From a virus, in the IMG/VR virus record IMGVR_UViG_3300008267_000243, positions 1 to 29,882 of that record: a stretch of DNA of 29,882 bases. One strand, 5' to 3'. Shown one piece after another: positions 14 through 15,245 of the stretch. Position 1 is the first letter of the stretch. Every line of letters begins with the position of its first letter. Position numbers and translations under genes: made by a program. The notes under the pieces were generated by a model. That model did not search any database and was not told where the DNA came from. It saw only the letters and a list, made by a program, of their open reading frames with translations.

Positions 14-964
14 ATGTATCAGAAATCAGCTTTGCTAGGTGGAGACTTAATAAAGTGCGGACTATGTAGTTACACTTCAGCAAAATTAACAATACATGTC
101 AAGAAAGAGCATAATATTTCTCCTGAAGAGTATCGTGAAAAATACGGAAGCTTGGTTTGTGATAACTCAATAAAAAGATATTCCGCAATTGCAAAAGAAA
201 ATGGATCTTGGATAAATAGAGCCAAAGAGTCTGGGCAGGATTTAGGAGAGTATAAAGCAAAAGTTTCCGAGTCTGTTTCTAAATCAATTATGTCAAATCC
301 AGAAGAAAGAAAGCGCAGAGCAGAGCTTCTTGGCAGTTTAAATAAAACAGAGGCCTTTAGAAAGAAGGCTAGTGAAACTGCCAAGAAAACCTCTGCCAGA
401 ATCGATATACAGAAGAGTAGAGCCGCTAATCTTAAAAGGTGGAGAGCTTCTCATAGGAAAGAATTTTTAGCCATAACTTCTAAGCTTCTTGTGTCAAAGA
501 AAAAGACAAAACCAGAAATCTACATAGATAGGTGGTTAATTAGTAATTACGAGGGAATGTTCAAGTATTCTCAATTTTTTTATTCTAAAAAATTTAATAC
601 AATTTCTGGCAAAAAACAAGTTGACTTTTTATCTTTAGATCGAAATATAATAATTGAAATAGATGGACCACTTCATTTCAGGGAATCACTTGAGAGTTTT
701 AAGAAAATAAGGGAAAAGGATGTAGCTCTATCTATATATTCAATCTTAAAACAAAAAACCTTAATAAGAGTATCTTACGATTGTTGGGCTCAAAGCACTG
801 GAGGCTTCTCTAATGCAACTTTAGATAGAATATCTTCTATTATAGATAGCCCGCTCCCAGGGGTTCATTTTGTGGGTAAGATTTGGAATGGCAATGAATA
901 TAGTTATTGCACCTCAGAAGAAGAAATTATAAAAATCTATAAGGATACACAATGTCAAAAATAA
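14..964 (+). CDS. Free-standing homing endonuclease, Vsr-like/EDxHD type, inside a split-intein locus
   Basis: Probable DNA endonuclease that would spread the intein locus. Seen: an N-terminal zinc-finger-like motif (C15, C18, H28, H33) followed by SPEEYREKYG, which resembles MucR/Ros fingers; a basic helical middle (about 85-150) with NUMOD3-like repeats; and a nuclease core with E168, D204 in QVDF, and E215, D217, H221 in IIIEIDGPLHF, the layout of Vsr/DUF559 and EDxHD enzymes. The stop lies 10 bases past the next gene's ATG, in another frame. Known: EDxHD endonucleases occur between the halves of phage fractured genes with split inteins. The reading frame is open to the window edge and no SD is visible before this ATG, so the true start may lie upstream. 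The nuclease family is fairly sure; the role is inferred from context. Confidence 0.75.
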   Translation: MYQKSALLGGDLIKCGLCSYTSAKLTIHVKKEHNISPEEYREKYGSLVCDNSIKRYSAIAKENGSWINRAKESGQDLGEYKAKVSESVSKSIMSNPEERKRRAELLGSLNKTEAFRKKASETAKKTSARIDIQKSRAANLKRWRASHRKEFLAITSKLLVSKKKTKPEIYIDRWLISNYEGMFKYSQFFYSKKFNTISGKKQVDFLSLDRNIIIEIDGPLHFRESLESFKKIREKDVALSIYSILKQKTLIRVSYDCWAQSTGGFSNATLDRISSIIDSPLPGVHFVGKIWNGNEYSYCTSEEEIIKIYKDTQCQK

Positions 965-1062
965 TTTCATGTGAAGAAATTGGAGAATTTGATACCTATG
1001 ATCTAGAGGTAGATCACCCTGACCATCAGTATTATCTAGCAAATGGAGTTCTGACTTCTAAT
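952..1062 (+). other. C-intein coding segment (37 codons)
   Basis: Encodes the 37 residues ahead of the DnaE C-extein. The length matches natural C-inteins of cyanobacterial DnaE and phage gp41-1 (36-37 residues). The last residues are Leu-Thr-Ser-Asn; the penultimate Ser replaces the usual His, as in cyanobacterial DnaE inteins. The +1 residue is Ser. Splicing itself is inferred. Confidence 0.85.
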
Positions 1063-2139
1063 TCCCACTCTGTCTCTTACTCCTTTATTTCTTACTACAC
1101 CGCTTGGCTAAGATATCATTATCCAACACAGTTTATGTGCGCCATACTCAACTCTGAAGATCCAAATGGTGATAAGATTCAAGAGTACATTGATGAGTGT
1201 AGAAAAATGGGAATTTCTCTCTTGCCACCAGATGCAAATTCCAGCTCTTATGTAAATAAAGTTACTGGAGAAAAAGAAATTACTTCTGGACTCTCAACAG
1301 TTAAGGGCGTAGGAGAAAAGGCGGTAGGAAGCATTGTTGCCAATCAGCCATATGTTAATTTTGTAGATTTTCTAGCTAGAAATCCAAGCAGACTAGTGGG
1401 GAAGACTGCCATTCAATCTCTCGCAAAGGCTGGAGCATTTGATGCCTTTGGTTTGCCAAGAAAAGAGATGCATGATAACTATCAGAAATATAGAAATAAA
1501 ATTAACGCACTAATTAGAAAAGAGATTTCTATTGCAGAGGCAGAGGAAGCAGAGGTTCTAGAGGATAATTCCCTCTCTATTGGAGAAGATATCTTTGATG
1601 AAGAGGTATCAGATTCTACTGTAAGAATAATCTCCTTGAAACCAACTTATAACCCAGAGATGACAGAAAAGATTAAGAAAATGTCTCTTTCCTTTGAAAC
1701 AAAGGAAGCTCCGGAAGAGTGGGATAAGAAGAATATTTTGCTCTATGAGAGAGAGGTCTTGGGTAGAGCTGTATCTGGAAGTCTTCATGAGGCTTTCAAG
1801 GGGTTCTTCTCGGGAGGTTCCAATGTTGTCTCGCTGGGATCTATTGGAAGAATGGAGTCTGGTTCCAAGGTAAGGGTGGAGGCCATTATTAAGAATAAAA
1901 TTAAAGAATTTAAGATTAAAAATGGTTCCAATATAGGGAGAAAGTTTGCCAAATATTTAATTGAGGATAGTTTTGGCAACACTTGCGGGATGACTCTTTG
2001 GGCCGATGATTATGATCAGCACAGAACATCTTTAGTTGACGGAATACCTTTTAAGGCTATTTGTAAAGTGAACGAGTATATGGACCAAAAAGATTTGGTA
2101 TTATCCTCACTAGAAAGAGTATATGGGAGAGAAAAATGA
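952..2139 (+). CDS. dnaE: C-intein fused to C-terminal part of DNA polymerase III alpha subunit
   Basis: Second half of a fractured replicative polymerase gene. Residues 1-37 are a C-intein: block F-like DTYDLEV, then block G-like NGVLTSN, with splicing expected after N37 and Ser38 as the first extein residue. Residues 38-395 align by eye with E. coli DnaE from its conserved SHS..Y motif: SHSVSYSFISYYTAW, then YIDECRKMGI, LLPPD and VKGVGEKAV (helix-hairpin-helix), and finally an OB-fold-like domain near residues 290-390. The protein ends soon after the OB fold, so the bacterial tau-binding tail is absent. An SD-like AAGGA at 941-945 lies 6 bases before the ATG, supporting translation as its own gene. 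The N-terminal extein plus N-intein should lie upstream of the window. It overlaps the next gene by ATGA. Confidence 0.9.
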   Translation: MSKIISCEEIGEFDTYDLEVDHPDHQYYLANGVLTSNSHSVSYSFISYYTAWLRYHYPTQFMCAILNSEDPNGDKIQEYIDECRKMGISLLPPDANSSSYVNKVTGEKEITSGLSTVKGVGEKAVGSIVANQPYVNFVDFLARNPSRLVGKTAIQSLAKAGAFDAFGLPRKEMHDNYQKYRNKINALIRKEISIAEAEEAEVLEDNSLSIGEDIFDEEVSDSTVRIISLKPTYNPEMTEKIKKMSLSFETKEAPEEWDKKNILLYEREVLGRAVSGSLHEAFKGFFSGGSNVVSLGSIGRMESGSKVRVEAIIKNKIKEFKIKNGSNIGRKFAKYLIEDSFGNTCGMTLWADDYDQHRTSLVDGIPFKAICKVNEYMDQKDLVLSSLERVYGREK

Positions 2140-4305: not shown

Positions 4306-4857
4306 ATGTTTAAAACATTGTCACTTGATATATCTTCCACAACAATAGGCTGGGCTTTACTAGGCAACTCTGATGATCAAATTACAATCATAGAGCACGG
4401 ACATTTAAAGCCGCCAAAATCAGAACTATCTTTAGCCAATAGAGCTTTAAGATCACAAGTCTTAATCAAGAACTTAATCAGAAAATATGATCCAGATAAA
4501 ATTGCCATAGAAGATTATGTTACAAAATTTTCAAAGGGTAAAAGTACTGCTAAAACCATTGTTGTTTTATCTGTCTTTAATGAAGCAATGACTATGGCCT
4601 GTATTGAAGAGAAAAAAGTTGATCCAGACAGGCTGGCGGTTATAAGTATTAGAAGTTTGTTATCAAAATCTTTTGATCAAAAAATATCTTCCAAAGAAGA
4701 ATGTTTTGATTTTATCAAGCAGATTGCATCTTTTTCGGTCAAGCAAAATAAGAAACAAAGTATTAAAAAAGAAACCTTTGATGAAGCCGATGCCGTAGCT
4801 GTTGGTATCGCATCAATTATCAGGAGTAATAATGGCAAAAAATTTATCTTACAATAA
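4306..4857 (+). CDS. RuvC-like Holliday-junction resolvase
   Basis: 183 residues from the ATG at 4306. An in-frame GTG at 4261 would place the start inside the hairpin and adds no conserved residues. Fold of RuvC/RNase H-like nucleases that cut four-way junctions. Seen: LSLDISSTTIGWALL with D8 (first acidic motif plus the typical S/T and GW), IAIEDY with E69, and the C-terminal DEADAVAVG with D159 and D162, together the three acidic motifs. Known: phages use such enzymes to resolve recombination and packaging intermediates. It overlaps groEL by 26 bases. Its ribosome-binding site lies in the 3' arm of the preceding hairpin, so translation from read-through RNA may be repressed. Confidence 0.78.
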   Translation: MFKTLSLDISSTTIGWALLGNSDDQITIIEHGHLKPPKSELSLANRALRSQVLIKNLIRKYDPDKIAIEDYVTKFSKGKSTAKTIVVLSVFNEAMTMACIEEKKVDPDRLAVISIRSLLSKSFDQKISSKEECFDFIKQIASFSVKQNKKQSIKKETFDEADAVAVGIASIIRSNNGKKFILQ

Positions 4858-6478
4858 AGAAGCTAGAGCTAAGCTGCAATCCGGTGTAGACAAGTTGGCA
4901 AAAACTGTCGCAGTAACCATGGGACCACAGGGCAAAAACGTTATTCTGCAGAAGTTTGTCGGAAATCCAGTTATTACTAAGGATGGAGTCTCTGTTGCCA
5001 GAGAGATTGTCTTGGAAGATCCAATCGAGAATCTTGCCTGTCAATTGGTTAAGGAGGCTGCGGGCAGAACCGCTGATATGGCTGGCGATGGAACTACCAC
5101 CGCTACTGTGCTAACTCATGAGATTTTTTCTAGAGGCAATAAGCTAATTAGCGAAAATTATCACCCATTACACCTAAAGAGAGGGTTGGAGTGGGCTAGG
5201 GATCAGGTTGTAGCTGGTCTAAACAAGATTGCTACTCCAGTTTCTGATTTTGTTTCGCTTAAAAATATTGCCACCATTTCCTCTAATAATGATCAGGAAA
5301 TGGGAGGTTTAATCGCAGAAGCTTTTGAAAAAGTCGGATTATCTGGAACTGTCACTGCAGAGGCTTCTCCAGGCAATCATTCTTATGTTAGGGTTACTGA
5401 TGGTATAGAGTATAAGAAAGGTTTTATTACCTCTAATTTCATTGTGGATGGAGGGTCTGAAGTTACTTTTCAGAACTGTGCAATTATTTTAACTACACAA
5501 GAGATTAGCTCTTTAACCTCTGGTTGGCTTCAAATTTTAAACGAACTGAGTGAATCACAAACACCTGTTTTGTTAATCTGTAAGTCTCTAAAGCAAGAAG
5601 CTCTAGCAACCTTAGTTGCAAACAATAAGCTTGGAAGGCTAAAGTGTGTGGCAACTGAGCTACCTCCATATGCCAGAAATAATCCGGAGTGGTTGGACGA
5701 TCTTTCAATCTTATTGGGCACCAGGATTGTCGGCCCTGAGTTTGGTCTAGAGCCACAGGATCTAAAGAGATCAGATCTTGGATTTGCAAAGAGAATTACT
5801 GTTGGAAAGTACGATACCAAAATCTTGGAAGGCAAAAAGAATCTAGAGAGACTAGAAGCAAAAATGATAATCTATAAAGAAGATCTTCAAAAGATTATTG
5901 GAGATACTGATAGACTAGATATTAAAAGAAGAATGGAATATCTCACCAATAAGGCTGCCGTCATTGTTGTTGGCTACAATACTGAGTTGGAGCTAAGGGA
6001 GAAGGGGGATCGACTAGATGATGCCCTAGGGGCGACTAGGGCCGCAATAGAAGAGGGGTACGTCCCTGGTGGTGGTGCAGCCCTTTATCGTGCAGCCAGC
6101 ATGGTAGACTTGGGAATGGCACCTTATGAGATTAGGGAGGCTGCAAGGGTCTTGCTAGACTCCTGCTCTAGACCATTGAGACAAATTGTGACCAATGCAT
6201 TTGAAGATCCAGAGCAGATTCTAAAAGAGTATCTAGAGTATAACGGTACAAATATTGGCTTCAATGCTTCTAGCGGCAAGTGGGAGGATTTAGTTGCCGC
6301 TGGTGTTATTGATCCAAAAAAAGTTACACGCACAGCCCTAGAAAACTCGACAAGCATCGCCTTGCTGCTTATAAATACAGAGGCGGTAGTTTCTGATGAG
6401 CCAGAAAAACCATCTGGTTGGCAACCCCCTGCGGGGTGGCGTCCACCAGAGTCCTCTAATTTAAATCACAAATACTAG
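4832..6478 (+). CDS. groEL: Phage-encoded chaperonin GroEL (HSP60), full length
   Basis: 548 residues, the same length as E. coli GroEL; ATP-driven protein folding cage. The start is the ATG at 4832 because AGGAG (4822-4826) lies 5 bases upstream and MAKNLSYNKEAR matches the family; a TTG 30 bases earlier has no support. Seen: VTMGPQGKNV, ITKDG (D51), GDGTTTATVL (D86), and DALGATRAAIEEG with D397, the counterpart of catalytic D398, then PGGGAAL. The apical domain is complete (about 190-370) and keeps L233, L236 and L258, but the usual SPYF substrate/GroES-binding segment reads TSNF. The C-terminus is Trp/Pro-rich instead of GGM repeats. No groES lies in the window. It may fold virion proteins or work with host GroES. 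Confidence 0.93.
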   Translation: MAKNLSYNKEARAKLQSGVDKLAKTVAVTMGPQGKNVILQKFVGNPVITKDGVSVAREIVLEDPIENLACQLVKEAAGRTADMAGDGTTTATVLTHEIFSRGNKLISENYHPLHLKRGLEWARDQVVAGLNKIATPVSDFVSLKNIATISSNNDQEMGGLIAEAFEKVGLSGTVTAEASPGNHSYVRVTDGIEYKKGFITSNFIVDGGSEVTFQNCAIILTTQEISSLTSGWLQILNELSESQTPVLLICKSLKQEALATLVANNKLGRLKCVATELPPYARNNPEWLDDLSILLGTRIVGPEFGLEPQDLKRSDLGFAKRITVGKYDTKILEGKKNLERLEAKMIIYKEDLQKIIGDTDRLDIKRRMEYLTNKAAVIVVGYNTELELREKGDRLDDALGATRAAIEEGYVPGGGAALYRAASMVDLGMAPYEIREAARVLLDSCSRPLRQIVTNAFEDPEQILKEYLEYNGTNIGFNASSGKWEDLVAAGVIDPKKVTRTALENSTSIALLLINTEAVVSDEPEKPSGWQPPAGWRPPESSNLNHKY

Positions 6479-14468: not shown

Positions 14469-15245
14469 ATGGACCTACAATTAGCTAACAATCTAAAGAA
14501 ATTTGCAGAAGAAAACTACATAGATACCCCACTTATTGTGGGTGGCTATGTTAGAGATACTGCCTTTGGATTAGAAGATAAAATTGTAGACATAGACCTT
14601 ACTACGAACAATGCTGATATCACCAGATACGCTATTGGTTTTGCCTTACAGAATAATTTTTATTATAAAATATTTAATGATCTACATGTTACAATTTATA
14701 CAGATCAGTATAAAAATTTAGATTTTTCTAGCAACTTCAATTCAAAGAAAGCAATAGAGTTTTATAAAGATTCAAAATTTTCTGATAAAAAATACTATGA
14801 GGTAATTAGCAGGGATTTTACAATCAATACTCTTCACAAGAGTATGTTTAATGATGATATTATTGATCCATTAGAAGTTGGTCTTTCTGATTGCAATGAC
14901 AGAATTATCAAGACTGTTTCAACTCCAGAGATTTGCTTTGGTGATGATCCAAGAAGGGCCTATCGTGCCATATCTATTGCCACAAGATTAAATCTAACTA
15001 TAGATGGAGAAATTATAGATTATATTAGAGATAATCATTCTATTTTTATGCCATTAAATAGCGGCTCTGTATCAGAAACTTATATTACTTCAAATATAGA
15101 TAAAGTGATTGGAATCAATGATGATGTATTATTGGGAGTATTAGTTGACACAAAATTGTTACCATTCGTTCCATTGATAGGAAAATTTAAAGATTTATTA
15201 ATATCTAAAAATATGGTTCCAATTTATTTGGACTTAATAAAATAG
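14469..15245 (+). CDS. CCA-adding enzyme/poly(A) polymerase-like nucleotidyltransferase
   Basis: 258 residues. Class II nucleotidyltransferase head and neck. Seen: VGGYVRD (24-30), DIDLTT with D41 and D43 as the metal-binding pair, ISRDFTINTLH (113-123), corresponding to the family's RRDFTINAL, IIDPLEVG (131-138), and GDDPRRAYRAISIATRL (158-174), equivalent to the E/D-DP-R..RA..FA.RL motif. The usual body and tail that hold tRNA are missing: bacterial enzymes have about 400 residues. Known: these enzymes add CCA or A to RNA 3' ends. Placement among packaging and head genes is unusual. Substrate cannot be told from the sequence. Codons are AT-rich. Confidence 0.82.
   Translation: MDLQLANNLKKFAEENYIDTPLIVGGYVRDTAFGLEDKIVDIDLTTNNADITRYAIGFALQNNFYYKIFNDLHVTIYTDQYKNLDFSSNFNSKKAIEFYKDSKFSDKKYYEVISRDFTINTLHKSMFNDDIIDPLEVGLSDCNDRIIKTVSTPEICFGDDPRRAYRAISIATRLNLTIDGEIIDYIRDNHSIFMPLNSGSVSETYITSNIDKVIGINDDVLLGVLVDTKLLPFVPLIGKFKDLLISKNMVPIYLDLIK

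Follow-up and report, generated by a model that had tools for sequence, protein, structure and literature searches.

A fractured phage dnaE gene with a predicted split intein and an interlocked endonuclease gene

Genes at the edge of the contig

The IMG/VR virus record IMGVR_UViG_3300008267_000243, a contig of 29,882 bases analysed here over its whole length (the window), carries phage terminase, portal, GroEL, RecA and primase genes and starts just past the predicted stop of the N-terminal half (N-half) of a dnaE gene, which encodes the alpha subunit of DNA polymerase III. Its first two genes, like all features located below, lie on the plus strand: an endonuclease open reading frame (ORF; positions 2 to 964) and the C-terminal half (C-half) of dnaE (ORF 952 to 2139). 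The C-half has its own ATG and a Shine-Dalgarno sequence, AAGGA (941 to 945), inside the end of the endonuclease gene, and its first 37 codons (952 to 1062) encode a C-terminal intein part (C-intein, IntC; MSKIISCEEIGEFDTYDLEVDHPDHQYYLANGVLTSN) that ends in LTSN, with the Asn at 1060 to 1062, and leads in frame into SHSVSY of DnaE, just as a preliminary description of this DNA had said. TIGR01443 (NCBIfam intein_Cterm) matches residues 15-38 of the product at 21 bits (cut-off 15.6), matches to DnaE models begin at residue 37-38, and the C-intein is further delimited by alignment with 10 relatives and with N-terminal intein parts (N-inteins, IntN) and by AlphaFold and Foldseek analysis of a naturally fused homologue. 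The splice junction is placed at 1062/1063 by gapless FNK-SHS tiling against the intein-less relative L006 and spliced relatives, making the Ser at 1063 to 1065, in the DnaE SHS motif, the +1 residue and the first of the C-extein. The latter (1063 to 2139, stop codon 2137 to 2139) is the C-terminal part of DnaE, with an HHH_6 helix-hairpin-helix and an OB-fold region. Positions 952 to 1065 contain what marks a C-intein: block F, a terminal Asn and, at +1, one of Ser, Thr or Cys.

The endonuclease ORF is cut at its 5' end by the contig edge and codes for 320 residues in the window, which alignment, domain and fold matches divide into a Ros/MucR-type C2H2 zinc finger, NUMOD-like helical repeats and an EDxHD/Vsr-like nuclease domain. 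It is read in a different frame from the dnaE C-half and overlaps the start of that gene by 13 nt; the single continuous frame through intein and endonuclease that the preliminary description had asked about is not what the window holds. Base 14, previously given as the start, lies within the gene, as the open frame extends back to base 2 and in relatives the protein starts ~40-45 codons further upstream, within the N-intein coding region. The zinc-finger region (44 to 202) is matched by PDB 2jsp in both sequence and fold, and Pfam PF05443 is found in 11 of 13 homologues (best E 1.1e-8). The nuclease core (515 to 721) comprises E172 (515-517), D208 (623-625), E219 (656-658), D221, H225 (674-676) and D240 (719-721), all of which are invariant in 13/13 aligned homologues, and residues 201-239 match DUF559, a domain detected in five of the 13 (best 0.0014), the match of the window itself falling below the cut-off. 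Foldseek returned weak matches, the best to AbaSI (E 0.037), with the Vsr structure 1vsr at rank 21 (E 1.0, TM 0.49 on target). The invariant motif residues and the weak fold and domain matches, taken together, are the basis of the earlier assignment to the Vsr/EDxHD type and tentatively point to an EDxHD/Vsr-like class. Compared with the homologue in the close relative L004, the window protein is a mosaic, ~90% identical up to residue 120 and 17% identical at residues 161-200, with a breakpoint near residue 150 that looks like a swap of the nuclease domain. The breakpoint is abrupt (window 161-514 versus L004 2906-3964), the DNA-binding half being ~90% identical and the nuclease half strongly diverged.

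The N-half would lie beyond the edge of the record and so is not visible in the window. In the close relatives L004 and L008, whose C-halves are 85 and 78% identical to that of the window, the gene upstream of the endonuclease encodes an N-terminal part of DnaE that ends in ...GFNK and continues into an N-intein, SLTFSELV...CTINHKFRT...LEIVVSAEK. The intein-less L006 reads ...YAFNKSHSISYS... across the site, so that the element sits exactly at FNK/SHS (the slash marking the junction). As the N-half of L008 stops 24 nt before the codon matching window base 14, the stop in the window phage is expected ~10 nt before base 1, and this phage would accordingly be predicted to carry a dnaE N-half with an N-intein upstream. 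In L004 the ATG of the endonuclease falls within the bases for N-intein block B, where ACATGCACG reads T-C-T in the frame of the intein and M-H in that of the endonuclease; most homologues keep the start MHxxSQ together with this overlap. With a start inside block B and a stop over the start of the dnaE C-half, the three coding regions are interlocked, and IntN, endonuclease and IntC would therefore travel together. An intron between the halves was also considered and rejected, since intein motifs are encoded at the boundaries and the endonuclease is read in a different frame. At the gene overlap, RNA folding was no better than in shuffled sequences (z 0.44) and no Rfam family matched.

Split inteins and endonucleases at the same site in relatives

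Scans of viral contigs and genome contigs for relatives gave at least 26 non-redundant loci split at FNK/SHS with both halves present, and the complete ones have the proposed layout of a split intein with an endonuclease between the dnaE halves. In every split relative with enough upstream sequence on its contig, an N-half is followed by the N-intein that the preliminary description expected there and that we infer for the window. In these relatives the halves are separate polypeptides with exteins that complete one protein, the window showing the C-half, and the spliced exteins align to L006 without gap or duplication. The splicing motifs (TxxH in block B, TYDLEV..DH in block F, Asn followed by the +1 Ser) are invariant or nearly so, with T..H of block B in every aligned row (relatives only, the N-intein of the window being outside the record). 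Position 1 of the N-intein is Ser in most, Cys in L033, L035 and G024, and Thr-Cys in L071r. A second, complete dnaE, also raised as a possibility in the preliminary description, was found in none of 24 related records, where TIGR00594 and a custom profile were covered once, by complementary pieces. One relative, L009, is a natural single-chain fusion; its AlphaFold model (pLDDT 95.9) has as best PDB match by Foldseek the Npu DnaE intein (4kl5; E 5.9e-10, TM 0.80), so that the intein can confidently be predicted to have the HINT fold, as modelled on this fused homologue. Closest by sequence is the halophilic DnaE intein 7qil (6e-12), with 2keq also among the closest. N-intein and endonuclease queries had no match among GenBank phages and the IntC stretch none among plasmids, and genome contigs gave one match, a short contig of a Thioploca metagenome-assembled genome that is probably phage.

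Between L005 and G012, 106/140 four-fold sites (76%) are identical in N-intein, endonuclease and C-intein versus 103/240 (43%) in the exteins (Fisher p=4e-10), with a step in identity at the intein edges and dS of 0.31-0.48 in the three cassette parts versus saturation (dS >2) in the exteins. L004 and L008 follow the same four-fold-site trend (p=6e-4), the inteins of L002 and L007 are 81/89% identical and their exteins 61/50%, and the trees conflict in both directions, intein data rejecting the extein grouping (p_AU 0.026) and extein data rejecting the intein grouping (p_AU 3.9e-6). From these comparisons we conclude that the IntN/endonuclease/IntC cassette moves laterally, which lends indirect support to the predicted cutting of the intein-less allele. 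The endonuclease itself is found in a series of states: intact at 12 loci and in the window, frameshifted in L008, reduced to remnants in L002 and L028, and absent from L003, L012 and L033. In L010 and L065 the gap holds an endonuclease of another type, with CapR-like repeats, and in L069r and L070r it holds 3.5-4.6 kb of unrelated cargo; among the products are Tad-like pilus proteins at both loci and, in L069, a TnpB/Cas12f-like protein and an N6/N4 DNA methylase. Further states are the contiguous intein of L009 and the empty site of L006. The fused intein of L009 is not favoured as the ancestor: it is nested inside the split clade (98-99% bootstrap), making later re-fusion at least as likely as ancestry.

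The loci without an endonuclease or with unrelated cargo (L003, L012, L033, L069r, L070r) and those with the CapR-repeat type (L010, L065) are what would be expected if the endonuclease were an unrelated gene that had landed in an already split dnaE. We consider this improbable, as the same endonuclease family occupies the same place at 13 loci (12 non-redundant full-length relatives and the window), N-intein block B contains its start codon, and synonymous divergence stays at one low level across endonuclease and inteins and rises stepwise at either intein edge. It is also conceivable that the halves stay unspliced, that DnaE is active as two polypeptides held together non-covalently and that the intein pieces are inert leftovers. 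Relatives do have a recurrent dnaE break without intein halves at profile position ~606-622, so phage DnaE pieces apparently can work unspliced at one site; at FNK/SHS, by contrast, the splicing residues are conserved in every pair and under purifying selection (dN/dS 0.10-0.13 in the N-intein, with 0.15 in the endonuclease), the break falls within a conserved polymerase motif rather than between domains, and the exteins tile without loss, which makes such a complex very unlikely. That the split genes arose from errors of metagenome assembly or sequencing, such as frameshifts or chimeras, or are pseudogenes in decay is hardly credible and already largely refuted: although all records are metagenome contigs, and the L008 endonuclease and one L065 break resemble simple frameshifts, at least 26 non-redundant contigs, drawn from many samples, share this junction, with correct intein halves, start codons and mostly Shine-Dalgarno sites, and the exteins are highly conserved (dN/dS 0.02-0.05).

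The window thus very probably holds the 3' part of a fractured phage dnaE whose halves trans-splice and which harbours an interlocked cassette with a separate EDxHD/Vsr-like homing endonuclease. The gene beyond the record would make DnaE-N ending in FNK fused to an N-intein of ~100 residues, and gene 952 to 2139 the 37-residue C-intein fused to DnaE-C; the intein halves would associate, undergo an acyl shift at Ser1 and transfer to the +1 Ser, and Asn cyclisation with ligation would then yield a continuous DnaE and discard the intein. IntN, endonuclease and IntC would enter intein-less dnaE alleles as one interlocked cassette, predicted to follow cleavage of the empty site, and after fixation the endonuclease would decay or be replaced, whereas the split intein must stay. 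Several points weigh on the other side. The N-half of the window lies outside the record, and an exact 39-base search of viral contigs found no contig spanning the edge; the penultimate intein residue is Ser and not His, as it also is in cyanobacterial DnaE inteins; the fold match of the endonuclease is weak (AbaSI at best, Vsr far down the ranking); the intein-tree conflict is significant but modest; and where reading frames overlap, identity is raised in that part of the cassette, the endonuclease body being unaffected.

dnaE genes broken at several sites

What the preliminary description missed is that in many relatives the gene is interrupted at more than one site. Eight loci have two or more split inteins in one dnaE. 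The DnaE part on the L004 contig begins with a second C-intein (..NIDGIAVHN/SAAGSLVAY), and the phage of the window is therefore probably split there too. G012 has three pieces and two split inteins, with an endonuclease-like ORF between the halves of each; G017 (L074) likewise has three pieces and two split inteins, at STA/C and FNK/S, and L110, L117 and L118 have two split inteins each. Four polypeptides and three split inteins make up the dnaE of L101 (GRG/S, N/SSPDID and FNK/SHS) and that of G024 (L067/L068; G024:C1:132000-160000, reverse strand), which has one contiguous intein in addition and in which pieces 1 and 2 lie 15.6 kb apart with unrelated genes between. The most fragmented gene, G019 (L066; G019:C1:72500-90000, reverse strand), has about eight ORFs, five to six split inteins and one intein-free break. 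G012, G024 and L101 are the simplest, clean multi-piece genes and G019 is partly unclear, all of them on metagenome contigs. Exteins can be minute: in G019 the 7-residue extein SGAPDID, with catalytic aspartates, lies between two inteins (the PDID-site junction was read by hand), and in L091 (L091:9266-10531) the 6-residue extein SLPDID, which also has catalytic aspartates, is flanked by the C-half of a split intein on one side and by a contiguous intein on the other. Spliced on paper, the multi-piece polymerases are gapless at the intein junctions, and between N-inteins of the same genome identity is only 18-37%, a value that fits orthogonality and is no proof of it. We consider it likely that in a group of large phages the replicative polymerase is supplied as three to eight polypeptides, each encoded separately, which several different and mutually selective split inteins join in order, and that homing endonucleases or unrelated genes (up to 15.6 kb) lie between the pieces and exteins down to 6-7 residues carry the catalytic PDID. 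The phage of the window, a close relative of L004 with its second split, is probably a member of this group.

The intein-free break near profile position 606-622 was met in L086, L090, L095, L096, L099, L110, L115, L118 and G019 (L066), and in several loci the downstream piece opens with a CGC motif stretch. A G019 junction, KKERH/MAKVV, that had been taken for an intein was withdrawn, as it has no intein motifs and matches this break; one G019 ORF has an extra Hint-like C-terminal stretch. In Vibrio phage PVA7 (L080) dnaE is annotated in three coding sequences (CDS) with no intein halves at the breaks, which could be sequencing errors. Outside dnaE, a 2254-residue ORF (L041:3785-10546) has three C-intein profile matches and probably represents three inteins in one gene. 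Elsewhere in the window, positions 4802-6478 encode a GroEL-like chaperonin (Cpn60, E 1.1e-57) that adjoins RecA, and positions 14469-15245 a CCA/poly(A) polymerase head-domain protein amid phage genes.

Known systems and significance

The so-called fractured genes are reportedly phage genes for enzymes of DNA metabolism that are broken by a split intein, with a free-standing, often EDxHD/Vsr-like endonuclease between the halves. The layout described here, with its free-standing endonuclease ORF between two halves, belongs to this known kind (Dassa et al. 2009, Nucleic Acids Res 37:2560, as cited in PMC12350094 and PMC6892783); it probably differs in the host gene dnaE, and further in the endonuclease start in block B and in the several split inteins per gene in relatives. 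The cyanobacterial split DnaE intein (Ssp/Npu) is the closest solved intein by fold and shares the host protein, the penultimate Ser before Asn and a C-intein of 35-37 residues. It is not known to carry an endonuclease, and its site, AEY/CFNKSHS, lies three residues upstream of the phage site. The element studied here does not have the AEY/CFN insertion with Cys1/Cys+1 of the cyanobacterial allele; it differs in its site (FNK/SHS), in Ser1/Ser+1 instead of Cys1/Cys+1, in its homing endonuclease and in being phage-borne.

Contiguous DnaE inteins at the same site (FNK/SHA), not annotated as inteins in GenBank, occur in Rhodococcus phages NiceHouse (L013), Trina (L079) and Weasels2; they differ in lying in one continuous gene, with Cys1 and no endonuclease ORF. 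In Trina the annotation divides dnaE into two CDS, with no intein at the break between them. Contiguous insertions or C-intein-like matches at FNK/SHS are also present in the DnaE of Streptomyces phage Paradiddles (L078) and of Gordonia phage Wojtek (L076), which is annotated simply as DNA polymerase. In the DnaE of Trichodesmium erythraeum, which has several inteins as the polymerases here do, only one of the inteins is known to be split, compared with three to six in G024, L101 and G019. The split dnaE genes of that organism are described as encoding multiple inteins (Liu and Yang 2003, as cited in PMC5874633).

According to the preliminary description, a working split intein in a phage replicative polymerase would be new. 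For replicative polymerases at large this is too strong, since PolB cases have been published: Pseudomonas jumbo phage MIJ3 PolB has a split intein with an HNH endonuclease between the halves (PMC6892783), and Aes123 PolB1, CP21 PolB1 and LCGC14 PolB2 have Cys-less split inteins, with Ser1-type chemistry in Aes123 (PMC12707363). These are likewise naturally split inteins in a phage replicative polymerase, but of family B, of another intein lineage and with another endonuclease family (HNH in MIJ3). The literature searched, which covered few subscription papers, yielded no account of split inteins in phage DnaE, nor of three or more of them in a single gene; to our knowledge the phage DnaE case is new, as is the break into three, four or more pieces. 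EDxHD/Vsr-like homing endonucleases with CapR repeats are found in group II introns of phages (PMC12350094). What looks like the same repeat type is present in L010 and L065 and at the N-terminus of L011/L025, here in a split intein rather than a group II intron; the window endonuclease has a Ros-type zinc finger instead.

At this one site all states are found, namely empty, split with an active-looking, broken, remnant or no endonuclease, and contiguous, and this natural series makes the life cycle of a fractured gene testable. Inteins with Ser1/Ser+1 have no cysteine in their predicted catalysis, and cysteine-free intein chemistry is a wanted property for protein ligation, for which a polymerase with several split inteins would be a source of pairs that co-exist in nature and are presumably orthogonal. 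For the phages themselves, a dnaE split at several sites raises the question of how the polymerase is assembled in the right order within one infection.
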